DNA from: Natrialba magadii ATCC 43099
Lineage (GTDB): Archaea; Halobacteriota; Halobacteria; Halobacteriales; Natrialbaceae
Direction: 5' to 3'
Length of the DNA: 64,000 nt
Assembly: GCF_000025625.1 (NCBI RefSeq)
Contig: NC_013922.1
Span: 1,364,001-1,428,000, forward strand
The notes beneath the pieces are model-generated. The model was not told the origin of the DNA, did no database searches, and worked only from the letters and a program-made list of their open reading frames with translations. Within the stretch, counting starts at the first letter, position 1, and each line of letters begins with the position of its first letter. Of the stretch, positions 326 to 59,781 are shown in pieces. The translations under genes were made by a program, and so were the position numbers.

Positions 326-1396
326 TCAGAGATCGACTTCGAACGGCGCAAACTCGTCTGCACGGCTCGCGAACGCACCCAGCAGCGTCGCAATCTCCTC
401 GAGGTCGTCCGTATCGATCAGCTCAACCGGCGTGTGCATGTACCGGTTCGGCACGCTGACCACCTGCGAGGGGATCGCCCCCGCCGCAGTGAAGAAACTG
501 TCCGCGTCCGTCCCGGTTCCGCGACCGAGCGCTTCGACCTGTAACTCGAGTTCCCGTTCGTCTGCGATCGATCGCAGCGCGTCGAAGACGGCCGGATGAT
601 TCGTGCTGCCGCGGCCGAGGGCCGGGCCGCCGCCGAGTTCCATCTGGCTTGTCTTTGTGCTCGGCGCGGAGGGGTAGTCGACCGCGTGGCCAACGTCGAC
701 GACGAGGACGGCGTCAGGTTCGAGGTCGAAGCCGACCATCTGTGCGCCCTTCCGACCGACTTCCTCCTGAACCGTGGAGACGGCGTAGACGGTCGCGTCG
801 GTGCCGGTTTCGACGGCCTGTCGGAAGCCCTCGGCTGCCGCCCACGTCCCGACGCGGTTGTCGAGCCCGCGGCCGGCGAGGCGAGTTTCCGAGAGCCACG
901 ACACTGTCGAGGAGAACGTGATCGGATCGCCAATTTCGATGCGCTCGCGCGCCGCGTCCTCGCTTTCAGCGCCGATATCGATCCAGAGATCCTCGATGTC
1001 GGCTTCCGACTCGTCCTCACGAAGGTGGATCGCGTTCTGCCCGATCACACCCTCGACAGGGCCGTCGGAAGCGTAAATCGTGACGTGTTGGCCCTGCGAG
1101 ACCGTCGGATCAGTACCGCCGACACGACCCGGCCTGACGAAGCCGTTATCGTCGATCGACTTGACGAGGAAGCCGATTTCGTCGACGTGGCCGGTAAGCG
1201 CGATTTCGGGTGCGTCAGCGTCGTCGGCACTGGCCCCCTCGTGTACTGCAACCGCGTTTCCGTAGGCGTCCGTCCGAACCTCGTCTGCGAACTGGCTGAC
1301 GTAGTCGATCCAGACCCGCTGGCCGCGCGTTTCGTAGCCCGATGGCGAGGGCGTCTCGAGTAGGTTCGTGAGGAATTCACGCGAATCGTCGTTCAT
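326..1396 (-). CDS. M42 family metallo-aminopeptidase
   Basis: 356 residues from the ATG at 1396, which begins MNDDSREFLTNLLETPSPSG, the usual M42 N-terminus. An in-frame upstream ATG at 1501 adds 35 residues that do not look like the family. Dinuclear metal-site motifs are present: TGHVDEIGFLV, GRGLDNRVGTW, STVQEEVGRKGAQ with the catalytic Glu pair, VVDVGHAVDYP, and a C-terminal YMHTPVE. The family forms large cytoplasmic dodecameric (TET-type) aminopeptidases that trim peptides released by the proteasome. PAN, PepF and an M28 peptidase lie 30 kb away in the same window. Monocistronic by appearance. Confidence 0.92.
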   Translation of the reverse strand: MNDDSREFLTNLLETPSPSGYETRGQRVWIDYVSQFADEVRTDAYGNAVAVHEGASADDADAPEIALTGHVDEIGFLVKSIDDNGFVRPGRVGGTDPTVSQGQHVTIYASDGPVEGVIGQNAIHLREDESEADIEDLWIDIGAESEDAARERIEIGDPITFSSTVSWLSETRLAGRGLDNRVGTWAAAEGFRQAVETGTDATVYAVSTVQEEVGRKGAQMVGFDLEPDAVLVVDVGHAVDYPSAPSTKTSQMELGGGPALGRGSTNHPAVFDALRSIADERELELQVEALGRGTGTDADSFFTAAGAIPSQVVSVPNRYMHTPVELIDTDDLEEIATLLGAFASRADEFAPFEVDL

Positions 1397-1591
1397 GGCG
1401 TCCGATTGGTCGGGTTGTACTTTACGTCCGGTGATTTCCGTGTCGGTGCGACTGGGTAGTGTCGCCACTGGTGAGCGGGTTGCATAACGCTGTGGAGTCA
1501 CCGTTCACACGTCGTTGCCTAAAAATGGAACCTAGTCGTCGAGCGGGCGAGCCACGCGACTAATCGGTGACCAGCAGTTAGCGGTCAGCGA

Positions 1592-3954: not shown

Positions 3955-3983
3955 CCATACCAGCATCTCTCCGGTATACGACC

Positions 3984-5040: not shown

Positions 5041-5367
5041 TTAAATCGTTGGCTCAGTGTTGACCATCCCACCCGCACCGTCGACGGCGGCACTGCCCTC
5101 GCCGAGCGAAATCTCGACCGTCTCAGTCGCCGTGTCGTCCGTCGCTTCGACCGTCACTCGCTGTCCGTGATAGGCGAACTCGAGTCGATCGAGTCCAGGA
5201 CTCGACTCACAGAGTGAATCGAGTACGTCGGGATCGATCACGTTATAGAGCGGTTCGAGTTCGATCGGATCCGCACCCTCAACGCGGGCGACGAGGTCGA
5301 CGACGGCCATGCTCGGGCGTTGATCAGTGACTGCAACGGAGACTGACTGCGCGCTGTGCGAGTTCAT
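5041..5367 (-). CDS. HalOD1 output-domain protein
   Basis: 108 residues, ATG at 5367. The pattern of an N-terminal strand pair, PSMAVVDLVARVEGADPIELEPLYNVIDPDVLD (seen as VVDLVARVEG, ADPIELEPLY, NVIDPDVLD) and a C-terminal FAYHGQRVTVEA strand matches the haloarchaeal output domain 1, a small stand-alone or sensor-linked domain of unknown biochemical role in signal transduction. No sensor or receiver domain is fused. The nearest gene on the same strand is gnd, 327 bases upstream. Function beyond a regulatory role is unknown. Confidence 0.8.
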   Translation of the reverse strand: MNSHSAQSVSVAVTDQRPSMAVVDLVARVEGADPIELEPLYNVIDPDVLDSLCESSPGLDRLEFAYHGQRVTVEATDDTATETVEISLGEGSAAVDGAGGMVNTEPTI

Positions 5368-6594: not shown

Positions 6595-6830
6595 GGCAGT
6601 CGGTCCGCGGCGGAGTGAGGTAGGGGTTGTGATTTTCCAGCCCGCTTCTCGTGTCGCAGTGCTGGTTGGCTGTCCTCAAGTGCAACAGAAGAGCGCGAAA
6701 AGCGGGCTCTGAGGTGTGGGGTCTGCGGGCGGGTACCGGTAGTGCCACTGCCACTGCCGGTGTCGTTGCCGATAGGGTCGCGCTAGCGAGTGTACTCGAG
6801 TCGAGTACCCCTGGAACTGGAAACTGGACC

Positions 6831-8730: not shown

Positions 8731-9969
8731 TCAAACGGGGTTACAAAGCGCCCACACGTCCGCTGTCGGCTCGAGTCGGTGTGGTTCTGCACCCCGACTC
8801 GTCAGAATCCCCGTGTGGTACAGCATCGCCTTGAGCTGGAACACCGTCGGTGCATGGTAGACCTCGCCGTTCGTCAGTGCCTCACGCTGGAGAGATCCCT
8901 CCTCGGTCAGCACCCGCCGCCGCACGGCCTCGTCACCGCGAACGAACAGTTCGATGGTGAACGTCGGGTGCAACTCGTGACAGTGGGTGACCAGGTCGAC
9001 GAGCGACGGGTCCGTGTTCCAGTCGTCGTGCATCGTCTGCAACTCGCCGACGAGCAGTTCCGTCGCGGGGTACTGGAAGACGACCCGGCGCGCCAGCCGA
9101 CCCCACGCTGGCGCGAGGTCGACGAACCGTTTTCGCGAGCGGTACCACTCCTGGAACTCCGCGAGTGCCGCCTCGACCGACCCACAGTGGGCCTTCGCGA
9201 ATCGGATGACCTCCTCGCCGAGCGACGTGAGTGCGACGCGTTCGCGGTCCTCGATCAGACCGAGGAACGCTGCCCCGCGCCTGGCGTCGTCGACGGCCCC
9301 AACCACGTCGTATTCGTCGAGGAGCACCGCTGTATCGCCGTCCGCGTAGTGCGCCAGCGGATAGCCGAGGTAGTTCTTCGGATGGTTCAGGCCGAATGAC
9401 TTGTCCGCAACGCCCTGTGCGCTCGCCTGGAAACGCAGCGCAGAGGCTTCGGTCGTCGTTCGGTTACCCACCAGTCGGGGCCGCTCGAGTACCTCGACAT
9501 CGCCGCTGACCATCACGCCGAGAACGCCGACGTTCAGTTCCCGGGCGAGCGTCCGATCTGTGCTCGTAATCGCCGTTGCCGGTGCCGCGATATACGCCGC
9601 ATTGGCCTCGTGGAGCCGGTCGTAGGCCTGCATGATGGCGCGCTCGGTGTCGACACTGCCCGTGTTCGTGTGTCCCTTCGCCTCGACGGCGACCAGTGGT
9701 GGTTCCTCACCGAGTCGGTCGACCGCGAGCAGGTCGGACTCGAGTACCTGTACGCCGACGAGGTCGGGGAACCCACCGCCGATTTCGACGTGGTTGAACG
9801 GGGCCAGACAGTCACGGATTGCAGGATCGATGGGCTGGCCGGGAAGCCACTCATCGCGGGCGAACTGCGTGTCGGCGACGACGTAGGACCGGTCGGTCGC
9901 AGGGAAGAGTCGCCGCTTGGTATGGGCGAGGACCTGCGGTTCCGAGAGCGGTCGGGCCGCACTGCTCAT
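8731..9969 (-). CDS. Putative PD-(D/E)XK nuclease-like protein with C-terminal helical domain
   Basis: 412 residues from the ATG at 9969 (MSSAARPLSEPQVL). The in-frame extension up to 10134 overlaps the promoter of the divergent gene and is excluded. Around residues 60-105 the order FPDLVGV - about 17 residues - PLVAVEAKGHTNT gives the D...ExK arrangement of the PD-(D/E)XK nuclease core, followed by a helix with AIMQAYDRLHEANAAYIAAP. The C-terminal 200 residues are helical with possible winged-helix character (IEDRERVALTSLGEEVIRFA). Similar proteins in haloarchaea are annotated hypothetical. No methyltransferase or helicase partner is adjacent. Confidence 0.55.
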   Translation of the reverse strand: MSSAARPLSEPQVLAHTKRRLFPATDRSYVVADTQFARDEWLPGQPIDPAIRDCLAPFNHVEIGGGFPDLVGVQVLESDLLAVDRLGEEPPLVAVEAKGHTNTGSVDTERAIMQAYDRLHEANAAYIAAPATAITSTDRTLARELNVGVLGVMVSGDVEVLERPRLVGNRTTTEASALRFQASAQGVADKSFGLNHPKNYLGYPLAHYADGDTAVLLDEYDVVGAVDDARRGAAFLGLIEDRERVALTSLGEEVIRFAKAHCGSVEAALAEFQEWYRSRKRFVDLAPAWGRLARRVVFQYPATELLVGELQTMHDDWNTDPSLVDLVTHCHELHPTFTIELFVRGDEAVRRRVLTEEGSLQREALTNGEVYHAPTVFQLKAMLYHTGILTSRGAEPHRLEPTADVWALCNPV

Positions 9970-11489: not shown

Positions 11490-12116
11490 ATGGAACACGT
11501 CTCGATCGACGATATCGAGTCAACACCGTACGACGACCTCCACACCGGTCGGCGCGACCTCGCGACCCCGCTCGGCACCGACCACCTCGCTATCACACAC
11601 TACGTACTCGAGTCCGGCGAGCGATTCAGCGGGTCGGTTCACGCGCACATGGATCAGGAAGAGGTGTTTGTCGTACTCGAGGGGGAGGTGACGTTCGAGG
11701 TTGCACGAGTGGGTGGAGAGCAGGACGAGCAGAACGGGTTGGACGAGCAGGACGAGCAGAACGGGTTGGACGAGCAGGACGAGCAGAACGGGTTGGACGA
11801 GCACGATGAATACGATAGGCAGGACGTGAAAGACGGACAGAACGGCGTGGAACTCACCGTTGCCGAACGGGAGGCAATTCGCTTTGCACCCGGTGCGTTC
11901 CAGTCCGGGCGAAACGATGGTGACGAGCGGGTCGTCGCGCTCGCGCTTGGCGCGCCGCGGGACAGCGACGACATTCGAATTACGCGGATTCCGGCGCTCG
12001 ATGATAGAGATGTTTCGTGTCCGGACTGTGGCCACGACCACCTGCAAATTGGACGCGAGGGTGAAGCCGAACTGGTCTGTCCGGAGTGTGGTGCGGAAGT
12101 CGAGATTGCGGAGTGA
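11490..12116 (+). CDS. Cupin-domain protein with acidic repeat insert and C-terminal zinc ribbon
   Basis: 208 residues. The N-terminal cupin is seen in FSGSVHAHMDQEEVFVVLEGEVTFEV (fragments: SGSVHAHMDQEE, VFVVLEGEV), with metal-binding His/Glu. A hydrophilic insert of three identical EQDEQNGLD units then interrupts the barrel before the second motif RFAPGAFQSGRNDGDE. The C-terminus holds CPDCGHDH...CPECGAEV, a two-CxxC zinc ribbon. Cupin plus ribbon suggests a small metalloprotein or regulator. The substrate is unknown. The repeat lies in a loop, so the fold should tolerate it. Confidence 0.82.
   Translation: MEHVSIDDIESTPYDDLHTGRRDLATPLGTDHLAITHYVLESGERFSGSVHAHMDQEEVFVVLEGEVTFEVARVGGEQDEQNGLDEQDEQNGLDEQDEQNGLDEHDEYDRQDVKDGQNGVELTVAEREAIRFAPGAFQSGRNDGDERVVALALGAPRDSDDIRITRIPALDDRDVSCPDCGHDHLQIGREGEAELVCPECGAEVEIAE
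11718..11798 (+). repeat. In-frame minisatellite, 3 x 27 bp, in cupin gene
   Basis: Three identical 27-base units at 11718-11744, 11745-11771 and 11772-11798 encode EQDEQNGLD three times. Identity at the nucleotide level, including wobble bases, shows recent expansion rather than old duplication. Confidence 0.95.
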
Positions 12117-12249: not shown

Positions 12250-13482
12250 CTACGGCCGCAACGCCCACCCCGCAAGCACGACGACCAGTCCGCCTGCCGC
12301 GAGCAGCCCGAACCCGGGGACGAACGAGCCGGTCGCATCCCGGAGCGCGCCGATCAGGACCGGCCCGAAGAAGCCGCCAATCTCGCCGACTGCGAAGATA
12401 AAGCCGACCGCGGTTCCGGTCAGTCTGGCACCGATGCCCTCGAGTTCAGGCGGGATTGCGCGGACCAGCGGCGAGACGCCACCGGTGCCGATACCAGCGA
12501 CGACGATACCGAGAACCGCCAGCGCGCCGGTAGTACCCGCGATGAGGAGTCCGACACCGACGAAGGCGACCGTTCCACACGTCATCAGCGCCTGTCGCCG
12601 CGCGTCGAACCGGTCTGCCAGTTCGGGAACCGCGAGGACGCCGCCGACGTAGGCGACGACGAACAGGCTCGTCGCCTGGCCCGCGCGGCCGGCCGACAGC
12701 CCGCGGGACTCCAGCAACGTCGGAAGCCAGCCCTGCATGCCGTGGTTGAGCAGGAGGTACATCGTGCCGAGCACGACGACAAGCTGCAGCTGGCGATGGG
12801 TGAGGACGAGCCGGAGATCAGTGCGGACGGACTCGAGTGAGAACGAGTCGTCGGAATCGTCGCTGTCGTCCTGAGTGGAGTTCGTGCGGTCGTCGAGCCG
12901 CGTACGGAGTGCGACGAGGAGCCAGAGGAGGCCGTAGGCGACCGTGACGATGCCACTCCAGAGGAACAGGGCGCGCCAGCCGCCGAGCGCGGGGCCGAGG
13001 ATGGGCCGGCCGACGGCGAAGACGAACGCAGAGCCGGCAGAGGCACCGACGAGGTAGATCGAGGAGGGGCGGCCGGTTTCGCCGGGCGGAAAGAGAACGC
13101 CGACGAGTTTCGGGAGGCCGAAGGTAATCGCGGTCGCGCCGACACCGAGCAGGAGCGTCCAGGCAAGCAGCGAGGGGAAGCCGGTGGCGACGCTGCGGCC
13201 GATCTGGGCGATGCCGTAGCAGAGGACGCCGGCCGCGAGACTGCGACCGGGGCCGATGCGGTCGACGGCGAGTCCCGAAAACAACGCGAGCGGGATGTAG
13301 GTAAGCGGGACGGCACCGGCGAGGAGACCGGCCTGCGTGCTCGTGAGGTCCAGTTCGCCGATGATCGTCGGGAGGTACGCCGGAAGGGAGAACCAGACGA
13401 ACATCAGACAGGTGTAGCTCCCGGTGGCGAGGAAAACGAGCCAGTAGGCGCGTCGCATGTCGACGGCGGTACTCGCCGTCAT
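12250..13482 (-). CDS. MFS transporter
   Basis: 410 residues from the ATG at 13482 (MTASTAVDMRRAYW); a start at 13458 is also possible, and the longer upstream frame is not hydrophobic. Twelve membrane helices can be traced, with the conserved loop motif AVDRIGPGRSL between helices 2 and 3 and a long acidic cytoplasmic loop (TQDDSDDSDD) in the middle. It resembles the CynX/NarK-like branch of the major facilitator superfamily. The substrate cannot be assigned from sequence. The gene starts 174 bases from the end of the P-type ATPase gene, on the same strand. Confidence 0.85.
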   Translation of the reverse strand: MTASTAVDMRRAYWLVFLATGSYTCLMFVWFSLPAYLPTIIGELDLTSTQAGLLAGAVPLTYIPLALFSGLAVDRIGPGRSLAAGVLCYGIAQIGRSVATGFPSLLAWTLLLGVGATAITFGLPKLVGVLFPPGETGRPSSIYLVGASAGSAFVFAVGRPILGPALGGWRALFLWSGIVTVAYGLLWLLVALRTRLDDRTNSTQDDSDDSDDSFSLESVRTDLRLVLTHRQLQLVVVLGTMYLLLNHGMQGWLPTLLESRGLSAGRAGQATSLFVVAYVGGVLAVPELADRFDARRQALMTCGTVAFVGVGLLIAGTTGALAVLGIVVAGIGTGGVSPLVRAIPPELEGIGARLTGTAVGFIFAVGEIGGFFGPVLIGALRDATGSFVPGFGLLAAGGLVVVLAGWALRP

Positions 13483-13656: not shown

Positions 13657-16452
13657 CTACGGCGAGAGCAACGACCGCCACGAGTTCGCCGCGATGAGTC
13701 CCGCAGTCCCCACGACACCAATCGTCGTGAACAGGGGGTTCAACACACCCGCAACTGCGAGCGGGAGCACGAGCGCGTTGTAGCCGAACGCAAGTACCAG
13801 GTTCTGGTACACCCGACGACGGGCCGCCCGTGCGAGCGCGAACGCCCGCTCGACGCCCGCGAGGTCGTCGTCGACGATGGCGAGGTCGGCCGCGTCGGCG
13901 GCCAGCGCTGTCCCGCTACCAAGCGAGATGCCGAGGTCGCATGCGGCGAGTGCCGGCGCGTCGTTCGTCCCGTCGCCGACCATTGCGACGCGGTTTTCCT
14001 CACAGAGACGGCGAATCGCTGCGGTCTTGCCATCCGGCGATACGCCTGCAAAGACGTGGCTCACGTCCGCGTGGGCCGCGAACGACGAGGCTGCGTTCCC
14101 CTCGTCACCGGTGAGAACGACGACCTCGATACCGTTCGCTGCAAGCGCCGTAATCGTCTCCTCCCACTCCGTCCGCGCCTCGTCGCCAATGACGATAATA
14201 CCCTCCGCAGAACCATCCCGACCGACGAGCACCGGCAACCGTCCTGCTGATCGGGCCGACGCTGCGCGGTTTTCGAGTGACTCAGGACAGTCCCACCCGC
14301 GGGCTGCGAACAGATCCGGATGGCCGACGAGCACGCGGTTCCCGTCGACGAACCCGGAGACGCCGCGGTCGTGTGCGGTAAACTCGTCGATGTGCTCGAC
14401 GGCAGAATCGTCTGTGGTCGTCTCAGAACCCGTGGTCGCGCTGCCCTCGGCGTCGTCGGCGTTCGGTGATGCGGTGCCGCCGTCAGTGCGGACTGGCTCC
14501 GACCCCGCAAAGGCATCCGAAATCGCCTTCGCCGCCGGGTGTGCAGCGCGGTACTCGAGTTCCCCCGCCGCCTGCAACAGGTCGGCCGGCGCGTCGGCCT
14601 CGATGACGCTCATTTCGCCGGTGGTGAGGGTTCCGGTTTTGTCGAAGACGACGACGTCGATACTGCGGAGGCGTTCGAAGACGGTTTCGTCGAAGACGAT
14701 GATACCGTGGGTCATCGCCTCGCGAATGCTCGCGGCGACGGAGCAGGGAGTGGCAAAGCCGAGCGCCCACGGGCTGGCGACGAGAATTGCCAGGAACGTC
14801 GCCAGTGTGGCGGTCGTGTAGTCGCCGCCCTGTGCGATGGTGAAGACGGCGGCCGCTCCGGCGGCGACGAGGACGAGCGGGAGCGCGAGGGCTGCGAGGT
14901 CGTCCGCGCGGCGCTGGAGGCCGTGAGTCGCACTCTGGAGGTTCCAGACGACATGCGTGAGCCTGTCGATGCTGCTCGTCGGGTGCTCACCGACGGCAAC
15001 AACAGCGGCGTTGTCTAGCACGACGGAGCCGCCGACGACCACCTCGCCAGCTGTCTTCGTGACGGGCAGCGATTCGCCGGTAACGACTGCCTCGTCGACC
15101 CGACAGGTACCCGTCGTGAGCGTCCCGTCAACGGGGATGCGTTCACCCGCCCGGACGAGGACACGATCACCGGGTGAGAGGGCCTCGACGGGGACTGAAC
15201 GGGTGTCCGTCGCGTCGTCATCCTCGGGCGGTGCGCTCGTCTCGTGGCCCTGACCGACCTGACCGGGATCGTACAGTCGCGCGGTCGATACCTGCGATAT
15301 TGTAAGGTCTGTGAGTCGGCTCATCGCCTGTCGCTTGACCATCGCCTCGGCGAAGAACGCGGCCATGACCAGCGCAGCTACGAGCACCGTGAGATCGTAG
15401 TAGATGTCGTTTCGGCCGGCGAGGATGGTGAGCGTGCCGTAACAGAACGCGGCGCCGACGGTGAGCGTGGCGAGCAGGTGCGTGCTTGCCCGACGGCGTC
15501 GGAGACTGATGTAAGCCCCGCGTAACAGGGGCATTCCGGCGAGGTAGAGCACGGCACCGGTGACGGTGAAAAATAGCGGCAGGATCAACGTCCCGTCGAA
15601 CCGCTGGAACGCCTCCTCGTAGAGTGCGAGGAAACCCCAGTCGACGACGCCGGCGAGATACGTCGGATACAGCACCGCGACATACGGGACGAGCAGGAAC
15701 GACCCAAAGACGATGCCAACGATGTATCGAATCTCGAGCATGTCGTCCGCGCGGCGCTTTCGAATGCCCGTCATCTCGCGTGATCGCTGCGTGCCGCCGG
15801 TCGACTCGGCGGCAGCACTGGTAGCGGACTCTGCGTCTGGTGCTGACTGTGATCTCGTCGTTGCCGTTTCTTTGGTCCTCCCCGTCGCCTCCTCGCGCCG
15901 GTAGGCAGTGTAGCCGGTTCGCGTCAGGATCGACTCAAGTTCGGCTGCAGAAATCCGGTCGGGATCGTGATCGACGCGGACGGTTTCGGTGACGTAGCTC
16001 GCGGTGGCCTCGTGGACGCCGGGCGTGGATTCGGCGACGTACTCGAGATAGGATTCACAGAGGGCGGCGTGCATGCCGTCGATGCGGAAGAAATTGCGAG
16101 TGGAGGAGTCGGGTGTGGTTTCTGTCTCTGTCTGTGTTTGTGGGGGTGTGTCTGCGTCTACAGCTGCATCTGTGTTTAGCTTCGTCTCCGTATCTGACTC
16201 CACCGCCGACCCCGCAACATCGACCGGCGAACCGAGCGCGGCCGCGACATCCCGGCAGCCGCGAGAGCAAAACGACTCCTCGTTTTGGGAGGGGCGACCG
16301 GTGTCGCTGCCGCTACCGCTGTCGCTGTCGCTGTCGCTGCCGCTGTCGCTGTCGTTCACGGACCCGAAAACGGAGTCCTGTCCGTCCCCAAGCGCGGCTC
16401 CACACAGCGAGCAATGGTCGGTCCCCGATCGCGATCGCCGGTCAGGAGTCAC
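13657..16452 (-). CDS. P1B-type heavy-metal ATPase with aberrant metal motif
   Basis: 931 residues. N-terminus: CSLCG...FCSRGC, like the zinc-finger head of FixI/CcoI copper ATPases, split by a DSGSD-rich repeat. A degenerate HMA domain at about 120-185 reads GMHAALCESYLE instead of GMTCxxC. About eight helices follow. The catalytic core is intact: TGES actuator motif, DKTGTLTTGE near residue 603, AAHPAAKAI and GDGTNDAPAL. The transmembrane CPC motif is replaced: VASPWALGFATPC near residue 560, so SPW stands where CPC belongs, with one Cys a few residues later. ATP hydrolysis should work; the metal specificity is unclear. A long acidic insert interrupts the nucleotide-binding domain (DDAEGSATTGSETTTDD). 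Confidence 0.9.
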   Translation of the reverse strand: MTPDRRSRSGTDHCSLCGAALGDGQDSVFGSVNDSDSGSDSDSDSGSGSDTGRPSQNEESFCSRGCRDVAAALGSPVDVAGSAVESDTETKLNTDAAVDADTPPQTQTETETTPDSSTRNFFRIDGMHAALCESYLEYVAESTPGVHEATASYVTETVRVDHDPDRISAAELESILTRTGYTAYRREEATGRTKETATTRSQSAPDAESATSAAAESTGGTQRSREMTGIRKRRADDMLEIRYIVGIVFGSFLLVPYVAVLYPTYLAGVVDWGFLALYEEAFQRFDGTLILPLFFTVTGAVLYLAGMPLLRGAYISLRRRRASTHLLATLTVGAAFCYGTLTILAGRNDIYYDLTVLVAALVMAAFFAEAMVKRQAMSRLTDLTISQVSTARLYDPGQVGQGHETSAPPEDDDATDTRSVPVEALSPGDRVLVRAGERIPVDGTLTTGTCRVDEAVVTGESLPVTKTAGEVVVGGSVVLDNAAVVAVGEHPTSSIDRLTHVVWNLQSATHGLQRRADDLAALALPLVLVAAGAAAVFTIAQGGDYTTATLATFLAILVASPWALGFATPCSVAASIREAMTHGIIVFDETVFERLRSIDVVVFDKTGTLTTGEMSVIEADAPADLLQAAGELEYRAAHPAAKAISDAFAGSEPVRTDGGTASPNADDAEGSATTGSETTTDDSAVEHIDEFTAHDRGVSGFVDGNRVLVGHPDLFAARGWDCPESLENRAASARSAGRLPVLVGRDGSAEGIIVIGDEARTEWEETITALAANGIEVVVLTGDEGNAASSFAAHADVSHVFAGVSPDGKTAAIRRLCEENRVAMVGDGTNDAPALAACDLGISLGSGTALAADAADLAIVDDDLAGVERAFALARAARRRVYQNLVLAFGYNALVLPLAVAGVLNPLFTTIGVVGTAGLIAANSWRSLLSP
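16300..16360 (-). repeat. GCTGTC/CCGCTG hexamer repeat in ATPase gene
   Basis: Tandem six-base repeats encode the DSDSGSDSDSDSGSGSD linker between the two cysteine pairs of the N-terminal metal head. Confidence 0.85.
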
Positions 16453-29435: not shown

Positions 29436-29537
29436 GTCGAAATTATGTCCACAATGGTTGAAATAAATTCGGTTCGCTGGTCGCTCGCGTATTCGACGAC
29501 GCTAACACACTCGAGTGACTTTCTCGAGTCACCACCG

Positions 29538-34241: not shown

Positions 34242-35474
<1,233 letters not shown>

Positions 35475-38629: not shown

Positions 38630-38701
38630 CCCCGATCAGTGTCGACTCGAGTCGGGTCCGGGTCGGAGTCACCAGAGGTGATCGGTTCAGCCCTGGCGGA
38701 C

Positions 38702-46096: not shown

Positions 46097-48370
46097 TTAG
46101 TCCTCACTGCGGGTTCGATCGTCTCCGAACGGTTCGTAGTTCTTTCCACCGCCATCATAAAACTTCCCAAAGAACTCGACGTACTCGAGCCTGATACCCT
46201 GTAATCCGGCACTTGTGATACCAAGTAACAAGACCAGAATGTGGCCAAGGATCAGGACGACTACACCGAATGCGAAGGCGGCAATTGCAACCGCGCCGTC
46301 GCCCATGTGGAAGAGTCCGGGGAACATCTCGACGGATCCCTCAGGGATCTCGTTCCACGGTGCGGCGAACGGGCGGCTTCCGTCTGTCGTCTCGTAGGCA
46401 CCGAAGGTCAGCAGGTTGACGACGAACGCCATCCCACCCTTTGCGAGCAGGACGGCCGTCATCCGGGCGTACGAGACGACGTGTGCGAACGGCATCGCGA
46501 ACTCTGCGAGTTCGACCGGGTCACCGATGGCGAGCAGGACGATCCCTGCAATAACCATCAGGAACGGGAAGGTGGCTTCGAAACCGCCGAGATAGGCGAT
46601 ATCGGCCGGGACGGTGAATACCGTCATCATATCGAAGCCGCTGAAGCCGAAGTCGAACGGCTGGCCGTCGAAGGCCGTGAAGATGAACTCCGGCTTGACG
46701 CCGGCAGCCTGCGGCGTAAACACCCAGATCCAGATCCCGTTCAGCATCAGGAGCCACGAGCCACTGTGGGTAATCGCACCCCAGAGACCGTGGCCGTGCT
46801 GGATGTTCTCGATGAAGTCGAGAATCCAGGCGATGTTCAGGTGCATCACACCGAGTGCAACGGCGACGATCAGCCACGCGTAGACGAAGTCAGCCGTCGC
46901 TGGTGAGAGTCCCTTATCGCCCATCGGCGCGCCGCCCTCGCCGAAGATCATGTAGCCGAGTTCGTGTAGGCCGAAGAACTCGCCGAACAGGATCCCGAAG
47001 AGGATCGTGAACGCGCCAGCCCAGATCGCAACGCCACCGAGACTCGAGATTCCTGGGCTATCGAATCCCTTGTACATGTAGAACCCGATCAGGACGTACA
47101 GCAGCCCGTACCCGACGTCACTGATCATGAATCCGAAGAACAGTGGGAACGTCAGGAACAGGAAAATCGTCGGATCGAGTTCGTTGTACTTCGGCCGATT
47201 GACTGCCTGGACCAGCATTTCGAACGGCTTCGCCGCCGACGGATTATCCTGAATCGTCGGCGGTTCGTCGCCCATCGTCACCGCAGAGCCGCCATCCGTG
47301 ACGGCCTTCTGTTGTTGCTGGTCGTCTTCGTCTGCATCAGCCGACGGTTCGTCGCCTTCTTTCGCATCCTGCGTTCCCTGGTGGACGCCATCCGTATGGG
47401 TCCGACCGTGGCGGTCGTAGCTCGCGCGCTCGAGTTCTTCGATCTCGAGGCTGTCGCCGACCGCATTTCGCAGGGCTGTTTTGAGCCGCTCGAGTTCGTC
47501 GGACGGAACCCAGCCCTCGGCGATGAAGGCCCGGTCGCTCGTCGCGAACTGCAGCGGCGCTTCCGCACGCTGAACCTCGATGGTCAGCTCCGCCTCGAGC
47601 TGGAGCAGGAACGAACCCTCCTCGCGCTCGATACGTTCGAGTTCGTCGTCGATCTCGTCGATCCGGGACTCGAGTTCGTACTTGCGATCCTCGAGTTCGG
47701 AGACGTACGCCGACGGACTCTGTTCGGTGTCCGGCACGTCGTATCGCGTGAACTCGATGCCGACGAGCGCGTCGTCGATGACGTTGTCGGCGTCGCCAGC
47801 GTCTTCGACCGGATCGATCTCACCGGTCGGTGCAGCGACGATTGCGACGACGTCACCACTGGTGAACGTCTCGTAGGCGCGGATGTCCTCGGCTGCCTCG
47901 AGTGCAGCCTGAACCTCTGCCTCCGAGCCCTCACCGACGAGCACGTCGACCGTGTCGTACCCCGACAGCAGGTCGAGATCGATACCGAGTTCCGCGAAGG
48001 GCGCGACGCGGTCGATCCGTTCGTCGACCTGTCGGAGCTCCTCACGAACCTCAGTTTGCTGGTCGTCGAGTTCGTTGATCCGCGTGCGAACCTCCTCCAG
48101 TCGCTGCTCCCAGTTCTCCGCGAGTGTCCCCTGGCCCGATGCCTCCGCTTCGGACAGCCCGAGGGTACTCTCGAGTGCCCGGACGGTGACGAGTTTCTCG
48201 GAGGCGTCGTCGGCACCCTCGATCGGGTTGCCGTTATCGAACCCCTCCCAGGAGCCGTCGTAGTCCGAGAGATGCACCAGATTCAGCTCGTGGATCGTCT
48301 CGATGACCGTGGGCATAACGCCCTTGGAGCCGGTCACCGAGACCTTGCTCATCCGTTCAGGTCTGAGCAT
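46097..48370 (-). CDS. atpI: A-type ATP synthase subunit I (a subunit)
   Basis: 757 residues. The N-terminal cytoplasmic arm is rich in coiled coil (about 1-360, with an acidic His/Gln-rich linker EDDQQQQKAV). The C-terminal half has about eight helices with FPLFFGFMISDVGYGLLY and YARMTAVLLAKGGMAF, which holds the conserved Arg of the ion channel. Overlaps atpH by 14 bases. Confidence 0.96.
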   Translation of the reverse strand: MLRPERMSKVSVTGSKGVMPTVIETIHELNLVHLSDYDGSWEGFDNGNPIEGADDASEKLVTVRALESTLGLSEAEASGQGTLAENWEQRLEEVRTRINELDDQQTEVREELRQVDERIDRVAPFAELGIDLDLLSGYDTVDVLVGEGSEAEVQAALEAAEDIRAYETFTSGDVVAIVAAPTGEIDPVEDAGDADNVIDDALVGIEFTRYDVPDTEQSPSAYVSELEDRKYELESRIDEIDDELERIEREEGSFLLQLEAELTIEVQRAEAPLQFATSDRAFIAEGWVPSDELERLKTALRNAVGDSLEIEELERASYDRHGRTHTDGVHQGTQDAKEGDEPSADADEDDQQQQKAVTDGGSAVTMGDEPPTIQDNPSAAKPFEMLVQAVNRPKYNELDPTIFLFLTFPLFFGFMISDVGYGLLYVLIGFYMYKGFDSPGISSLGGVAIWAGAFTILFGILFGEFFGLHELGYMIFGEGGAPMGDKGLSPATADFVYAWLIVAVALGVMHLNIAWILDFIENIQHGHGLWGAITHSGSWLLMLNGIWIWVFTPQAAGVKPEFIFTAFDGQPFDFGFSGFDMMTVFTVPADIAYLGGFEATFPFLMVIAGIVLLAIGDPVELAEFAMPFAHVVSYARMTAVLLAKGGMAFVVNLLTFGAYETTDGSRPFAAPWNEIPEGSVEMFPGLFHMGDGAVAIAAFAFGVVVLILGHILVLLLGITSAGLQGIRLEYVEFFGKFYDGGGKNYEPFGDDRTRSED

Positions 48371-49768: not shown

Positions 49769-50281
49769 TCACTCCGCAACCGACTCGAGTTCCCCAATCT
49801 GTGTCCCTTCTACAACGACCACCACCCGAACTGTCGACCCCGACTCGAGTACTGGATCGTTCGTTTCCGCAATCGTAACGCTCGCCTGCTCGCCCACTCC
49901 CCAGAGGGACTCACTCTTCGCATTGAACGGCCCCTCCGGACTCCCGTTAAATCCCTCCGCACCGACGAACGGAACTGGCGGCTGGTACTCGAGTTCGGTG
50001 CCATCGACGGTCACGTGTAGCGATAGGTCTTCCACGTCAAGTGGATCGCCAGCCGTGTGTTCGAAGGAGAGTGTGCCAGTTTCGGCGTCAGCCGAGAGAT
50101 CGAACGTTGCGACAGGGGCGGGCCCACCGAGGCTCCACCCGGAAACGATGACGGCGAGAACGGCGACGAGGAGACAAGTAAGCGCAAGCAGCGCAATGGT
50201 ACCGATGACAGGATTGACTGCTCGCGACGGATCGCATAGTGCACTCGACCGGCGCGACGGACGACGACGAACCGCACACAC
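49769..50281 (-). CDS. Type IV pilin-like protein
   Basis: 170 residues. The N-terminal region SRAVNPVIGTIALLALTCLLV has the archaeal pilin class III signal (RAVxPVIG) with a hydrophobic helix after it; prepilin peptidase would cut before the hydrophobic stretch. The mature domain is beta-rich with GTLSFEHTAGDPLDVEDL and WGVGEQASVTIAE, as in haloarchaeal pilins. No pilus ATPase or membrane core is in the window, so it must be assembled by machinery elsewhere. Confidence 0.82.
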   Translation of the reverse strand: MCAVRRRPSRRSSALCDPSRAVNPVIGTIALLALTCLLVAVLAVIVSGWSLGGPAPVATFDLSADAETGTLSFEHTAGDPLDVEDLSLHVTVDGTELEYQPPVPFVGAEGFNGSPEGPFNAKSESLWGVGEQASVTIAETNDPVLESGSTVRVVVVVEGTQIGELESVAE

Positions 50282-52042: not shown

Positions 52043-53347
52043 ATGCGGTTGTCCACCGCCGTTACACTCACCCTCGTTGCCCTCCTCGTCACAGCCGCCT
52101 TCGGTCCGGTGGCCGCGACGCCGACTGCAGCCGCTGGCAATCCAGCTTCTGCACCTAGTGCCGAATATGAGACAGCACTCGAACAGCCTGCGGCCTTCTC
52201 ACAGAGTTCGGTTGATCCATCCTACGGTCAGCCCGCCGAAATTGAACACATCACCCGGATCACCGTCAATGACAACGGCGACGCCCACTGGAGTCTAGAA
52301 TACCGTTTCGTTCTCGACGATGCGGATGAGATCGACGCGTTCAACGACTACGCAGCGGCCGTCGTTGCTAACGAACGTGGTGTCGAGACACCGATACAGG
52401 ACGTTCGCCAGCAAGTAACATACGCTGACGCCAATACCGATCGAGAGATGTCGATCGTCGGCGCTGGCTGGGACAGCTACGAGACCCGATCGTACGACGA
52501 CGATATCGAAACAGAAAATGATCCCGAAGGAACCCACGACGGAACTGAAATTGGCGTCATTACATACACGTTCACCTGGACGAACTTCGCCGACACGGAC
52601 GGCGACCGGATCTACCTCGGTGATGCACTCCAGGTGGACGGCAGTGACCGCCCAGCCATTTCCGTGCTCCACGACGGACAGCGTCTCGTCATCGAGTCGC
52701 CCAGTAATTACGGTCTCCAGACGCCAACGCAACTGACCTGGAATGGGTATCACGAGTTCAGCGATGACGAGTTCGAGATCGTCTTCCTGCGCGGTGCCGA
52801 GCCGCCCAGTGACTTCTCGTGGCTCTCACTCCCACTGACACTCGGTGCCGTTGCACTCACTCTCGCCCTCGCATTCGTCGGTCTCGCCGCCTATCGGTAC
52901 AGCAGGGACGACCCACTCCCAGGAGAGCCACAGATCGCTGCGCTTCTCGGTACCGACGCAGCGGAGAACGCAAGCGCAGACGCAACCGAGCAATCCAAAC
53001 CGACGCCGTCCTCTCAGGGCAGGCCGGCCACTCACTCCCCAGAACCGGAATCCGTACCGGCAACATCAAACGCCGGTGACGACGGCACACAACTCGAGTT
53101 CACCGAGCCTGCGGACGAGGATATTGACCCCGAGTTGTTGAGCGACGAAGAGCGTGTCCAGCGGATGCTCGCGGGCAACGGTGGTCGAATGAAGCAGGCG
53201 GCGATCGTCTCGGAGACGGGCTGGTCGAACGCGAAGGTGTCGCAGTTGCTGTCGCAGATGGATGAGGATGGCCAGATCGAGAAGTTGCGGATCGGCCGTG
53301 AGAATCTGATTACGTTGCCGGAAGTCGATCCGACGGAGATCGACTGA
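52043..53347 (+). CDS. Secreted/membrane sensor with C-terminal winged-helix (DUF7345/7343-like)
   Basis: 434 residues from the ATG at 52043 (MRLSTAVTLTLVALLV). Signal peptide, then a beta-rich outside domain of about 200 residues (HITRITVNDNGDAHWSLEYRF, GVITYTFTWTNFADTDGDRIYLGDAL), a transmembrane helix near 265-290 (LGAVALTLALAFVGLAAYRY), an unstructured acidic linker and an inside winged helix (AAIVSETGWSNAKVSQLLSQM) with IEKLRIGRENLI. The plan is a one-component membrane sensor that binds DNA. The partner is likely the adjacent divergent gene. Confidence 0.8.
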   Translation: MRLSTAVTLTLVALLVTAAFGPVAATPTAAAGNPASAPSAEYETALEQPAAFSQSSVDPSYGQPAEIEHITRITVNDNGDAHWSLEYRFVLDDADEIDAFNDYAAAVVANERGVETPIQDVRQQVTYADANTDREMSIVGAGWDSYETRSYDDDIETENDPEGTHDGTEIGVITYTFTWTNFADTDGDRIYLGDALQVDGSDRPAISVLHDGQRLVIESPSNYGLQTPTQLTWNGYHEFSDDEFEIVFLRGAEPPSDFSWLSLPLTLGAVALTLALAFVGLAAYRYSRDDPLPGEPQIAALLGTDAAENASADATEQSKPTPSSQGRPATHSPEPESVPATSNAGDDGTQLEFTEPADEDIDPELLSDEERVQRMLAGNGGRMKQAAIVSETGWSNAKVSQLLSQMDEDGQIEKLRIGRENLITLPEVDPTEID

Positions 53348-54893: not shown

Positions 54894-56027
54894 ATGCTGC
54901 TGGTCCTCTGTGTCGACCTCGACGACGACCTCGGCCGCAAGACCGGGTTCTCGACGCCGGTTATCGGCCGTGATTCCGTCGAAGAGGCAGGCGTCGCGCT
55001 CGCGACCGCGGACCCGGAGGATTCGGACGTCAACGTCATCTTCCAGGGGTTGCACATCTACGACGACCTGGACGCACGCGACGAGAGCGTCGAAGTCGCC
55101 GTCGTCACTGGCAACGACGAGGGCGACGTCAACGCTAACCGCGAAGTCGGCGACGAGGTTGACACCGTCCTCGCGAGTCTCTCCACCTCGGAGGACGTCA
55201 CCACCCTCGTCGTCACCGACGGCGCACAGGACGAATCCGTCATCCCGATCATCCGCTCACGCGTGCCGATCGACGGCGTCAGACGCGTCGTCGTCAGACA
55301 GGCCCAGGACCTCGAGTCGATGTACTACACGATCAAGCAGGTGCTCGACGACCCCGAAACGCGGGGAACGATCCTGATCCCGCTCGGCATCCTGTTGCTT
55401 ATCTACCCGCTCGCGCTGATCGGCAGCGCACTCGAGATGCCCGGCTTCGTACTCGGGACGACGTCGGCGCTGCTCGGCTTTTATCTCATCTCCCGCGGCC
55501 TCGGACTCGGCGAGCGACTCGACACAGCCGTCGAGCGCGCTCGGCGGTCGCTGTACGCCGGGCGGACGACTCTGCTCGCGTACGTCGTCGCGGCGGCACT
55601 GTTCGTCCTCGGTGGCGTGAGCGGGGTGAATACGCTTGAGTCAGTCCAGGCGGAAACGACCGGTGACGTCGGCGTTCCCGTCATGATTTCGGCGCTGGTC
55701 TACGGCTCGGTCCAGTGGCTCGCCGCCGCGGGCGTGACCACCAGCCTCGGCCAGATCACCGACGAGTACATCGCGGGGACACTCGAGTGGCGCTATCTCA
55801 ACGCGCCGTTCTACGTGCTGTCGATCGCGGTCGTCCTCTATGCGGTGAGTGCGTTCTTCCTCGATGAGGCGGGGATTGGGTTTCTCGCGGCGGCGCTGAC
55901 GGCGGGGACGCTGCTGGGGATCGTGAGTACGCTGGCGTTTGCGATCGTCGAGTCACGGTTGTCGGAGTCGACGGGAGACGCGGAAACAGAGCAAGAAGAG
56001 CGGGCGAAGGCGGACGGAGCACACTGA
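54894..56027 (+). CDS. DUF373 family membrane protein
   Basis: 377 residues from the ATG at 54894 (MLLVLCVDLDDDLGRKTGF). An N-terminal cytoplasmic Rossmann-like domain of about 155 residues (VDLDDDLGRKTG, GRDSVEEAGVALATADPEDSD, VVTDGAQDESVIPIIRSR) then about six helices and an acidic tail. It belongs to the archaea-wide DUF373 family, whose function is unknown. Divergent from the radical SAM gene, and convergent with the prenyl synthase gene. Confidence 0.85.
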   Translation: MLLVLCVDLDDDLGRKTGFSTPVIGRDSVEEAGVALATADPEDSDVNVIFQGLHIYDDLDARDESVEVAVVTGNDEGDVNANREVGDEVDTVLASLSTSEDVTTLVVTDGAQDESVIPIIRSRVPIDGVRRVVVRQAQDLESMYYTIKQVLDDPETRGTILIPLGILLLIYPLALIGSALEMPGFVLGTTSALLGFYLISRGLGLGERLDTAVERARRSLYAGRTTLLAYVVAAALFVLGGVSGVNTLESVQAETTGDVGVPVMISALVYGSVQWLAAAGVTTSLGQITDEYIAGTLEWRYLNAPFYVLSIAVVLYAVSAFFLDEAGIGFLAAALTAGTLLGIVSTLAFAIVESRLSESTGDAETEQEERAKADGAH

Positions 56028-57020: not shown

Positions 57021-57070
57021 TTACTCTTCCATCATTCTTCCATCATTCTTCTATCACTCTTCTGCCACTC
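57021..57070. repeat. 11-bp tandem repeat ATTCTTCCATC
   Basis: About four units, progressively diverged, in the 253-base gap between the prenyl synthase start and the transducer stop. No gene is visible in that gap. Confidence 0.85.
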
Positions 57071-57177
57071 TCCTGTCGCGTGAGACGATAGCGGTGGGAC
57101 GCCGATACAGAGCGGCGGCTGGGGACGATGATGAGAAAAACGGACAACGGAACCCAAGAAGAGACGTGACAGCGAAC

Positions 57178-59781
57178 TCAGTTACTGCCGTCGCTGACCT
57201 CGTCGTAGGTGAACGGATCGTCGACCGGTTCGTCGTCCCCGTCACCATCGTCTGCAGCGTCGCTACCACGTCCGCTCACAGCGTCACCATCGTCTGCAGC
57301 GTCGCTACCACGTCCGCTCACAGCGTCACCATCGTCTGCAGCGTCGCTACCACGTCCGCTCACAGCGTCGCCCTCCTCGCCAGCACCCACATCATCCGCG
57401 TTGGACGACGAAACCACGTTCTCATCGAACTCGAGTGTGGCCCCCTCGTCAGCTGTATCGTCAGTGCCAGTGGCATCGTCGTACTCACCGCCGAGGACGT
57501 CACCGGTCTCGCGTGTGTCGAGATCCTCGAGGTCGTCGACCGCCGCGTCGCTGGCAGCGTCGGTGTCGAAACGGTCGAGCATCTCGTTGAGCTGCGAGGC
57601 CTGATTGGCGAGCGAGCCGGCGCTCTTCGTGACTTCGGAGAGCGCAGAGGTCTGTTCCTCCGCAGCAGCGGCAACGCGCTGGGATTCGGTCGCCGTCGCG
57701 TCGGAGATTTCGGTCGCGGTCGAGACCATCGCGACGACTTCCTGGGTCGAGGCCGCCTGCTGTTCGGTGGTCGCCGAAATCTCCTGGACGCCGTCGTTGG
57801 TCTCCTGTGCGTAGTCTGCAATCTCGTCGAGTGCCTCCGCGGCGTTCTCGACGGCGTCGACGTGCGAGGAGATCTTGTCCGCGGTCTTCTGGACCTCCGT
57901 CGCGGTCCGCTCGGTGCGGTCGTTAATCCGTTCTAAGCGCTCCTCGATGTCTTCGGCCGTCTCCTTCGTGTCTGCGGCCAGTTCCTTGACCTCGGCGGCG
58001 ACGACCGCGAAGCCGTCACCCTGGGAGTCCCCGTCACCGCTGCGGGAGGCCTCGATGTTCGCGTTCAGCGCGAGCATGTTGGTCTCGCGGGCGACCTCGG
58101 TGATGAACTCGATCAGTTCGTCGATCTGTTCCATCTCCGCGGTCAGTTCTTCGATCGCTTCGACGGTCTCGGTCGATTCGGCCTCAATCTCGTGCATTCC
58201 CTCGATTGCGTCACGCGCGGCTTCGCGGCCGTAGCGGCCGGTCTCTGCCGTCTGCTCTGCGATATCTGCGACCTGGTTCGAGGACGCAGCGATCTGCTCG
58301 GTCGTCGCCGAGAGCCCGCTCATCTCGTCGGAGACCGCCTGCAGCTTCTCGTTCTGTCGGTCTGCACCGTCGGAAATCTCCTGAATAGAGTTGCTGACCT
58401 GTCCGGAGGCAGAGCGCACTTCCTCGGCGCTGGCCGTGACCTCCTCGCTGGCGACGGCCACCTCGTTCGCGAAGGACGTGACGTGAGCCGTCGTCGCCTC
58501 GAGTTCTTCGACCATCTCGTTGAACGCGTGAGCGATGTCGGTCATCGCCTCGTTCTCACTCTCGGGGTCGAGCCGCCGGGTAAGATCACCCTCGGCACAG
58601 ACCTCCATCACGTCGCGGTACTCGTCGGCCTTCGACTCGAGATGCTGGTTCATCGCCTCGGTCTCTGCGCGGGCCTCCTCGGCGTCCGCGCGAGCGGATT
58701 CGGCCTCCTCAATCTGGGTTCGCAGCGACGTTCGCATGCTGTCGAACCCATCGTAGAGGCGACCGATTTCGTCGATGCGCGACGTCTGTAAGTCGACGTT
58801 TAGATCGCCGTTCTCCATCGACTCCGTCCGATCGCGCAGTTCTGCAAGCGGCACGACCGTCTGGCGACCGAGTACGACGCCGACGAGGCCGAGCGCAACC
58901 AGACTCACGAGCACCATCGCGATGACGTTCGTTCCAACGTCGCTCGCGACACCGTAGGCCTGGTCGGTCGGCACAGTCGTCACCGCGACCCACTGCGTGT
59001 CGCCGACCGGCACGTACGCCTGCACCACGTCGTCGTCTTCAACCCGGTCCGGTCGACCACCGAGTGCCGCCTCGATGGCATCCTCGTCGGTCGTCGCGGT
59101 GAGTTCGCTCTGCCCGGTCTGGAAGATCGGCTCACCGCGGTCGTTAACAATCGCCGTCGATCCCGCCGCACCGTCCTGCTGGAGCTGGTCCACGCGGTAC
59201 TCGAGTGTCCCGATGACGACGACGACGCGGTCGTCCTGGTCGGGGACGGGGCTCGCGAAGGCCATCACCTGGTCGTCGAGGGCAGCGGACTCGTAGGCCT
59301 GTTCGGAGTGCCAGACGTCCTCGTCGAAGGAGAGTTCGCCGGCAAAGTCCGTCTCGGCCCACGGATCGTCGACGGCGGCGAGTTCGGTGTCGCGGATCTC
59401 GGCGTCGGTACTCGTGAGGACGGTTTCCTCGCTCGTATCGACGTAGTGTATCGCTCGCACGTCGACACCCATTCGGGCCTGTTCTTCGACGATCGCAGCC
59501 TGGACAGCCTGCACGTCGTCGCTCTGAGTCCCCGGTGACGTAGACGCTGTTCGGGTCTGGACGTGCATCGACTCGATCCAGTCACCGATGCCATCGGCCT
59601 GAAGTTCGGCGGTCGACTCGAGTTGCTCGTTCGAGTCGGCTCGCACGGTATCGTTGATCTCGGCGTAACTGACGGCACCGACAGCACCGATCACGAGCAC
59701 GACAGCGAGGATGGAGATGACGAATTTGAGCAGGTATCGCCGTCGGATGAACGACGGGACGAGTTTGGCAAGCAGCGACAT
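57178..59781 (-). CDS. Methyl-accepting chemotaxis transducer (BasT/Htr-like)
   Basis: 867 residues. Transmembrane helix at about 18-40, an extracellular double-Cache-like sensor to about 285, second helix at about 288-310, HAMP after it, then a long coiled coil with the conserved signalling tip [22 protein letters not shown] and a C-terminal methylation region with [13 protein letters not shown]. An acidic tail of three identical [14 protein letters not shown] units follows. It senses a ligand through the binding protein encoded directly upstream, or directly, and signals to CheA. Its ATG overlaps the binding-protein stop by one base, so the two are translationally coupled. Confidence 0.93.
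57241..57366 (-). repeat. In-frame minisatellite, 3 x 42 bp, in the transducer tail
   Basis: Three identical 42-base units at 57241-57282, 57283-57324 and 57325-57366, encoding [14 protein letters not shown] three times in the C-terminal tail, beyond the methylation helices. Confidence 0.97.

Follow-up and report, generated by a model that had tools for sequence, protein, structure and literature searches.

XhoI cuts CTCGAG and, like PaeR7I, belongs to type II restriction-modification. Why genomes fill with short palindromes of the HIP (highly iterated palindrome) kind is a long-standing question. Elhai (2015, PMC4390886) describes HIP1 of cyanobacteria as present at 500-2,500 copies per Mb, low in close relatives, accompanied by a methylase of its inner sequence and unexplained in origin; one-off variants of HIPs concentrate at the two terminal bases, and the model given there for HIP1, methylation-guided repair, leads one to expect saturation near one site per kb. 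Here we analyse the 8-bp palindrome ACTCGAGT, a CTCGAG core with A..T flanks, in a 64-kb stretch of the Natrialba magadii chromosome (the window, G000:C1:1364001-1428000, G000 being N. magadii) and in related genomes. On balance, we consider it probable that ACTCGAGT is a HIP1-like palindrome confined to one Natrialba clade and linked to an orphan methylase, which is predicted to be of the XhoI type and the N4-cytosine type.

The window contains exactly 40 copies of the octamer, the number given in a preliminary description of this DNA; 39 of the 40 start positions listed there were exact, the exception being 55791 for a site that begins at 55781, and the G+C content, put at 65%, measures 62.4%. 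The A..T flank pair is, as had been claimed, overrepresented among CTCGAG hexamers, 40 of the 144 in the window carrying it. The whole genome (4.44 Mb) holds 2,621 copies, and 22 of the reversed octamer TGAGCTCA, a control that flatters the contrast because it contains the rare GAGCTC. In a 464-kb sample of N. magadii, composed of the window and 20 stretches of 20 kb, 265 copies stand against Markov expectations of 5.8 (order 0), 28.6 (order 2), 38.5 (order 3), 49.7 (order 4), 98 (order 5) and 221 (order 6). Ranked against the 8-mers present 20 times or more in this sample, ACTCGAGT has the top z-score under orders 1 to 5; it ranks only fourth under order 6, because that model already holds the octamer's 7-mers. 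A palindromic octamer so far above Markov and codon expectation, at about one per 1-2 kb genome-wide, has the character of a HIP, while HIP1 proper, GCGATCGC, occurs 22 times in the 464 kb, fewer than any Markov model from order 1 to order 6 predicts (27-48). Literature searches returned no match for ACTCGAGT together with Natrialba and, for ACTCGAGT alone, no archaeal-genome title among the matches listed.

The excess had been put at about 60-fold, which is of the right order only against base composition (46-fold in the 464-kb sample), a null model that is too simple. In coding DNA of the chromosomal sample, shuffling synonymous codons within genes leaves 15.3 copies expected and 199 seen (about 13-fold), and a codon-pair model, with slightly different gene calls, 41.9 expected and 200 seen (about 5-fold). 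Both models fall short, in agreement with the view of the preliminary description that protein sequence does not explain the octamer; it had further proposed that the enrichment should outlast codon-pair modelling and not be equalled by many other 8-mers, and both hold. Genes were called by simple scripts of our own, and the class that we term noncoding therefore includes missed genes.

Counting the octamer across genomes, we observed that it is bimodal within the genus, the change being specific to one branch of Natrialba. The high species, N. magadii, Natrialba sp. SSL1 (G001), N. hulunbeirensis (G003) and N. chahannaoensis (G006), carry 2,364-2,756 copies (590-665 per Mb), with 2,621 in N. 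magadii and 2,756, 2,753 and 2,364 among the other three, whereas the counts among the three low species, N. asiatica (G002), N. taiwanensis (G004) and N. aegyptia (G005), are 384, 407 and 411. The named high species are haloalkaliphiles. Among the 125 family genomes searched, the 118 outside Natrialba lie within a range of 32-1,047, and 24 genomes from other families of the same order have 4-76. This clade-limited palindrome supports the HIP1-like reading already advanced in the preliminary description. The clade's plasmids are less dense (30 copies in 80 kb). The fourth contig of the N. magadii genome (58,487 bp) matches Natrialba phage PhiCh1, which has the same length and N. magadii ATCC 43099 as its host, with 100% identity in a comparison of 8 kb, and this resident virus shows no excess, with 3 octamers in 50 kb yet 109 CTCGAG. 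As side observations, two chromosomal samples, L001 and L002 (G000:C1:20001-40000 and 220001-240000), hold only 7 and 3 copies within their 20 kb, where the mean over 15 chromosomal 20-kb samples is 12.9, and they are possibly recently acquired islands; and GGATCC and GAGCTC are about 2.5-fold and 2.8-fold rarer in low than in high Natrialba (L111-L120 versus N. magadii and high samples), as if through clade-specific restriction avoidance.

Could codon or codon-pair bias, or a general haloarchaeal richness in CTCGAG, make the count? CTC GAG is a common codon pair, CTCGAG reaches 2.65 times its order-2 expectation in 12 other Natrialbaceae loci pooled, and the low species exceed the codon shuffle too (34 versus 7.7 in N. 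asiatica, 10 versus 3.4 in the low set); this background accounts for 3- to 4.5-fold. However, codon pairs predict only 41.9 of the 200 copies in N. magadii while predicting 12.9 for the 10 of the low set, the Ser-Ser frame rises similarly and noncoding DNA more, and sister species of similar codon usage differ six-fold. With 15.3 and 41.9 expected against about 200 seen, we reject codon or codon-pair bias as the cause and, as a full explanation, regard it as refuted, leaving it scarcely any credence. In the pooled loci (L024-L028, L031, L033, L034, L036, L038, L040, L046), CTCGAG occurs 775 times against 375 after codon shuffling, about 2-fold, with all its flank classes raised; this richness differs from the octamer effect.

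Essentially only the full 8 bp respond. Relative to the codon shuffle, A..T flanks reach 12.96 in N. magadii and 13.70 in SSL1 versus 4.42 in N. asiatica. Seven of the other nine flank classes are level or lower in the two high species (A.G 2.56/2.38 versus 2.63; C.C 0.63/0.61 versus 1.00) and two are higher (A.A 4.63/4.69 versus 3.26; C.G 0.69/0.83 versus 0.37). In raw density the octamer is up about 6-fold, with most other CTCGAG flank pairs level or down. Compared with the low set, N. magadii has fewer of six of the nine one-off core variants; the three that are commoner in it have small rates per Mb (ACACGAGT 17.9 versus 15.0, ACTGGAGT 12.4 versus 7.5, ACTTGAGT 2.7 versus 0). One-off variants in N. 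magadii number 77-191 per Mb at outer and 0-30 at inner positions, a shape similar to that of the low species (95-150 and 0-55).

The rise is seen in more than one reading frame. In the Leu-Glu frame, N. magadii has the octamer at 172 of 260 permitted places, SSL1 at 193 of 261 and N. asiatica at 28 of 161; the corresponding figures are 22/53, 27/67 and 4/45 for Ser-Ser, and 3/30, 2/33 and 2/28, no clear rise, for Thr-Arg-Val. Noncoding density is 0.40 and 0.47 per kb in N. magadii and SSL1 versus 0.05 in N. asiatica. Because the Leu-Glu and Ser-Ser frames and noncoding DNA are all raised, a purely translational cause is disfavoured. Where the code permits A before CTC GAG T, it is present in 172 of 187 cases in N. 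magadii and 193 of 205 in SSL1 (92-94%) versus 28 of 64 in N. asiatica (44%); at such places the octamer is nearly saturating. The gaps between octamers are near exponential (n=217, mean 1,444, s.d. 1,582; 7 below 50 bp against 7.4 expected), hence there is no spacing rule, nor do the gaps show a self-limitation of the kind in Elhai's HIP1 model.

These properties bear on two rival explanations. The octamer might be the binding site of a DNA-binding protein of the clade (nucleoid, replication or repair) under direct selection, the methylase being a bystander or modulator. That all 8 bp matter, that most other flanks are unresponsive and that octamers are conserved at synonymous positions would suit such a site, but the gaps show no preference and saturation where only a preceding third base must change exceeds what a spaced function needs; we regard this explanation as rather unlikely. 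Alternatively, DNA bearing the octamer might be preferentially taken up or recombined, giving molecular drive. A density of about one per 1.6 kb, neutrality to mutation type, the phiCh1 deficit and the lower plasmid density speak for an uptake or transfer signal of this kind; against it, plasmid presence does not discriminate, and known uptake signals are mostly not palindromic. For the uptake or chromosome-organisation roles raised in the preliminary description we find no positive evidence, the spacing being Poisson-like and no uptake system having been searched for, and we judge the uptake explanation improbable.

The 40 sites of ACTCGAGT in the window, identified by exact match and compared by alignment with Natrialba relatives, are as follows (strand given as '.' throughout).

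544..551 (.): identical in G001, G006
5178..5185 (.): identical in G001, G006; ACTCGAGG in low G002, G005
6794..6801 (.): identical in G001
9738..9745 (.): identical in G001, G006
11606..11613 (.): identical in G001, G006
12831..12838 (.): identical in G001
14553..14560 (.): identical in G001, G006; GTTCGAGT in 3/3 low species
17037..17044 (.): identical in G001, G006; ACTCGAGG in 3/3 low species
17262..17269 (.): identical in G001, G006
18511..18518 (.): identical in G001, G006
21080..21087 (.): identical in G006, not G001
21467..21474 (.): identical in G001
22353..22360 (.): identical in G001, G006; low species TCTCGAGC
25311..25318 (.): identical in G001; G006 has ACTCGAGA
25446..25453 (.): identical in G001, G006
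26606..26613 (.): identical in G001, G006
27132..27139 (.): identical in G001, G006
27414..27421 (.): identical in G006; G001 has CCTCGAGT
29509..29516 (.): identical in G006, not G001; low species GCTCGAGC
30065..30072 (.): identical in G001, G006
30206..30213 (.): identical in G006; G001 has ACTTGAGT
30293..30300 (.): identical in G001, G006; low species ACTCGAAT
31351..31358 (.): identical in G001, G006; low species AGTCGAGT
32474..32481 (.): identical in G001, G006; low species CCTCGAGC/CCTCGAAC
33356..33363 (.): in neither G001 nor G006
33412..33419 (.): identical in G001, not G006
35431..35438 (.): identical in G001, G003, G006; low species ATTCGAGC
35926..35933 (.): identical in G001, G003, G006; low species sequence unlike
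36924..36931 (.): identical in G001, G003, G006 and low G004, G005
37368..37375 (.): identical in 6/6 relatives
38645..38652 (.): without aligned ortholog
47668..47675 (.): identical in G001, G003, G006; low species ACTCGAGG
49783..49790 (.): in neither G001 nor G003
49843..49850 (.): identical in G001, G003
49987..49994 (.): identical in G001, G003
53092..53099 (.): identical in G001, G003, G006
55781..55788 (.): identical in G001, G003, G006; low species CTTCGAGT/CTTCGAAT; formerly listed at 55791
57429..57436 (.): identical in G001, G006, not G003
59199..59206 (.): identical in G001, G003, G006; low species ACTCGAGC
59616..59623 (.): identical in G001, G003, G006; low species ACTGGAGC/A

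In aligned orthologs, these sites are kept in 33 of 39 cases in SSL1, 30 of 33 in N. chahannaoensis and 11 of 13 in N. hulunbeirensis, against a baseline of 0.52, 0.50 and 0.55 for identity of all aligned 8-mers. When shared sites are divided by all sites present in either genome, the values are 0.80, 0.88 and 0.85 for the octamer and range from 0.15 to 0.83 for eleven other 8-mers, whose maximum stands for 5 of 6 sites. Identity of Leu-Glu octamers is 0.90 in SSL1 (n=29) and 0.93 in N. chahannaoensis (n=28), versus 0.67 and 0.61 (n=82 each) for Leu-Glu CTCGAG with other flanks. A low-clade ortholog could be aligned for 23 of the 40 sites, 2 being identical, 6 at one change, 9 at two and 6 at three to five, where the low species are sisters of the high clade and not its ancestors. 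Of the 49 changes, 29 are transitions and 20 are transversions, and all but one of the 12 kinds of substitution occur; therefore no single mutation type made the sites.

Octamer accumulation has altered protein composition. The pattern x-Leu-Glu-[FLSYCW], x being able to end in A, occurs 2.76 times per 1,000 residues in N. magadii and 2.47 in SSL1 versus 1.52 in N. asiatica; with Leu-Glu followed by other residues as reference, the odds ratios are 1.79 (p 2.7e-7) and 1.62 (p 1.9e-5), for three species and spread samples in which counts within related genomes are not independent. With an x that cannot have A as its last base, the pattern is not raised (0.90 and 0.89), and none of six control dipeptides is significantly up, Leu-Gln being down (0.64 and 0.63; p 0.06 and 0.04). 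At 16 Leu-Glu sites aligned with N. asiatica, 18 of 48 residues differ, a rate of 0.375 versus 0.182 in general, though numbers are small and sites gained via amino-acid change are expected to differ. A process at the DNA level can thus influence which amino acids a protein contains, a point of relevance to models of codon usage and of phylogeny.

We asked which methylases follow the clade, covering the families PF01555, PF02384 and PF00145. A profile search of the seven Natrialba genomes finds a PF01555 methyltransferase of 330 amino acids (aa) in 4/4 high and 0/3 low genomes, at one syntenic locus.

G000:C1:729616-730605, outside the window: gene of the 330-aa methylase, adjoining sucD/sucC

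In the low species the same flanks lie 77, 77 and 118 bp apart, versus about 1.3 kb in the high species. Two other PF01555 groups, one of 365-370 aa and one of 374-471 aa, occur in 7/7 genomes, further matches being patchy; PF00145 (C5) methylases were rejected as a correlate, since N. magadii has one only on the phiCh1 replicon, as was PF02384, not found in N. magadii. The 330-aa protein matches PF01555 at E 2e-36 and is under purifying selection (ratio of nonsynonymous to synonymous rates, dN/dS, 0.067-0.080). Among proteins of solved structure, its best match is TTHA0409 of Thermus thermophilus HB8 (PDB 2zie; E 3.6e-96). The protein (P0001) has a VVTSPPY motif and the beta-class N6/N4 methylase fold; motifs of the TSPPY type mark N4-cytosine enzymes, and N4-methylcytosine is therefore its predicted product.

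No Pfam-recognised endonuclease was seen among ten open reading frames scanned at the locus. PF04555, the XhoI-family endonuclease, is found in 0/7 Natrialba and 2/125 family genomes in the same search, G032 and G036 being its only positive controls because 14 control genomes gave no match; five partner proteins compared with 20-kb stretches around the Natrialba methylase gave no match better than E 0.87. On this PF04555 search of the seven genomes we reject an active XhoI restriction system in Natrialba, although an endonuclease of an unrelated family may be encoded. A methyltransferase was among the links proposed in the preliminary description, and this clade-matched, apparently orphan enzyme, of probable CTCGAG specificity, supports it; we hold with moderate confidence that the methylase is linked to the octamer, and rate any specific mechanism lower. 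A close homolog is found in 2 of the 118 family genomes outside Natrialba. Upstream of the gene (L171 ~8887-8936) lies a dispersed short repeat; each of the seven Natrialba genomes contributes to its dozens of matches, which span ~30-90 bp with about 75-97% identity.

The gene is present at E <= 1e-100 in 19 of 391 genomes drawn from the class, including four Natrialba. A PF04555 endonuclease adjoins relatives in G032 (74% identical), G416 (81%) and G357 (80%), and lies two genes on from a 76% identical relative in G333. Because XhoI-family endonucleases adjoin relatives 74-81% identical, the core specificity of the Natrialba methylase is probably CTCGAG, and it most likely stems from a CTCGAG system, having lost its endonuclease or never possessed one. 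The four Natrialba proteins group together in the tree as a single clade, which connects to G416 and G357 (98/93); the bootstrap is not fully settled and outgroup branches are long. Taking the 15 non-Natrialba genomes among the 19 together with G032, restriction or restriction-like genes lie near the methylase in 13 of these 16; in G374, G205 and G370 only ParB-like or other genes neighbour it. A conserved unnamed protein, 'nb', adjoins or is near the methylase in G016, G198, G393, G333, G207, G335, G323, G272, G192 and G233. It has 257-324 aa, with D87 and DAK at 118-120 invariant in alignment A1, and because of this D...DAK pattern may be an undescribed restriction endonuclease; it has no match in Pfam (members tried), PADLOC (one member) or PDB (alignment A1).

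L146:584-1366 (-): 'nb' protein
L225:2553-3506 (+): 'nb' protein
L228:2564-3517 (+): 'nb' protein
L229:483-1427 (-): 'nb' protein
L231:2542-3516 (+): 'nb' protein
L232:487-1434 (-): 'nb' protein
L227:2596-3369 (+): 'nb' protein

A suggestive parallel is found in Thermus. TTHA0409 is listed with unknown specificity in a 2023 review (PMC10073500). According to another article (PMC11437467), the DNMTa gene of phage Lalka27a shares >90% average nucleotide identity with an orphan methyltransferase gene found in many T. thermophilus isolates. DNMTa is 56% identical to the Natrialba methylase, and the matching host gene is presumably TTHA0409. CTCGAG occurs as CCTCGAGG in 147 of 163 cases in HB8 pTT27 (150 kb), 51 of 59 in HB27, 29 of 40 and 32 of 35 in T. 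oshimai and T. brockianus plasmids, and 1 of 8 in D. radiodurans MP1. A literature search for Thermus with CCTCGAGG gave no match. Against the codon shuffle, Thermus plasmids (L210-L215) have C..G flanks at 1.35-2.23, other flanks at 0-0.43 and TCGA at 0.23-0.37 of expectation; in HB8 the figures are 125 CCTCGAGG versus 92.7 expected, other flanks at 0-0.16 of expectation and TCGA at 148 versus 598. On the HB8 plasmid (150 kb), 147 of the 172 surviving TCGA lie within CCTCGAGG. Among phages, P23-45 has 0 CCTCGAGG in 50 kb and Lalka27a 35 in a 16.8-kb part. We rejected CCTCGAGG as an equal HIP, since it is mainly a sequence spared while TCGA is avoided, with an excess of 1.35- to 2.23-fold on top, and we regard it as an octamer of the same core that is either favoured or spared. 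The Natrialba case offers a candidate core specificity for TTHA0409-type methylases.

The Natrialba octamer could also be left over from restriction avoidance, if an endonuclease, whether past or present, had removed near-miss forms and left the protected octamer. The survival of Thermus plasmid CTCGAG mostly as CCTCGAGG, with TCGA avoided, would fit this. In Natrialba, however, total CTCGAG rises, other flanks are at most mildly below N. asiatica, no XhoI endonuclease is found in 7 genomes and phiCh1 keeps 109 CTCGAG in 50 kb, which makes this explanation very unlikely. Avoidance of CTCGAG by genomes with methylase and endonuclease was not upheld, observed/expected being 0.62 in samples of 14 gene-bearing genomes versus 0.50 in six loci from outside Natrialbales that were picked without regard to the methylase gene.

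The best reading of these observations is a HIP1-like palindrome in Archaea, probably built site by site. The ancestor of the four high species most likely acquired the methylase without a restriction partner, or lost the partner; near-miss sequences would then have become full octamers one site at a time, and existing octamers would have been protected from change. Because the effect is per site, 8 bp wide, of nearly all mutation types, free of spacing and near saturation, directional drive is likelier than selection for a spaced function, and as the maker of sites we tentatively prefer biased mismatch correction or biased gene conversion, guided by methylation, to direct selection for a protein-binding site; mismatch repair, also raised in the preliminary description, is thus a hypothesis here. 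It is possible, though we would not lean on it, that the freed orphan began a self-reinforcing 8-bp directional process, converted most reachable places in four species and rewrote proteins, and that Thermus orphans favour the same core with other flanks, in which case the flank would be set by a second, host-specific factor.

We stress that causation from methylase to octamer is our inference, and that several observations weigh against it. Within Natrialba the association (4/4 versus 0/3) has a single phylogenetic origin, because of which any other gene of the high clade is confounded with the methylase. The relatives in G016 (70% identical) and G032 (74%) occur in genomes that are poor in the octamer (40 and 27 per Mb), and 14 further gene-bearing genomes, sampled at 18-40 kb each and mostly around the gene, have 6 copies in 398 kb versus 13.9 expected (order 2); as these 16 genomes lack the excess, the methylase gene alone is insufficient. 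Neither Paraburkholderia pPT65 (54% homolog) nor the XH8 plasmid (75%) has an octamer excess. CTCGAG with other flanks is not enriched, and a methylase reading 6 bp alone therefore cannot explain an 8-bp effect; the CTCGAG core itself is missing, by majority, in 15 of 21 non-identical low-clade orthologs. In Thermus, codon usage and TCGA avoidance explain most of the octamer, and Lalka8 (L237) has 107 CCTCGAGG with no DNMTa annotated in the 50 kb read, so the phage octamer does not follow the gene. That 13 of 16 non-Natrialba genomes have a partner nearby fits an effect of orphans only, which was not predicted beforehand and leaves three exceptions to explain. Natrialba offers species with and without both palindrome and candidate methylase, and an empty gene site, which makes the cause testable by deletion or addition.

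Compared with described systems, the Natrialba octamer resembles HIP1 (GCGATCGC) and alternate HIPs in being a palindromic octamer with a density in their range, low close relatives and a candidate methylase of the inner sequence. It differs in belonging to an archaeon and to one clade of a genus, in its CTCGAG core with A..T flanks, in its predicted XhoI-type N4-cytosine methylase, and in the near saturation and altered protein composition shown here. As for XhoI/PaeR7I, the Natrialba methylase is close kin of methylases adjoining PF04555 in other haloarchaea, but it is apparently an orphan, with no endonuclease recognised beside the gene and none of XhoI type found in 7 genomes. DNA-uptake sequences (DUS/USS) are also dense short repeats found genome-wide, whereas the Natrialba octamer is palindromic. 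With TTHA0409 and Thermus it shares methylase kin and a favoured octamer of the same CTCGAG core, although the flanks are C..G there and A..T here, and the Thermus excess is only 1.35- to 2.23-fold.

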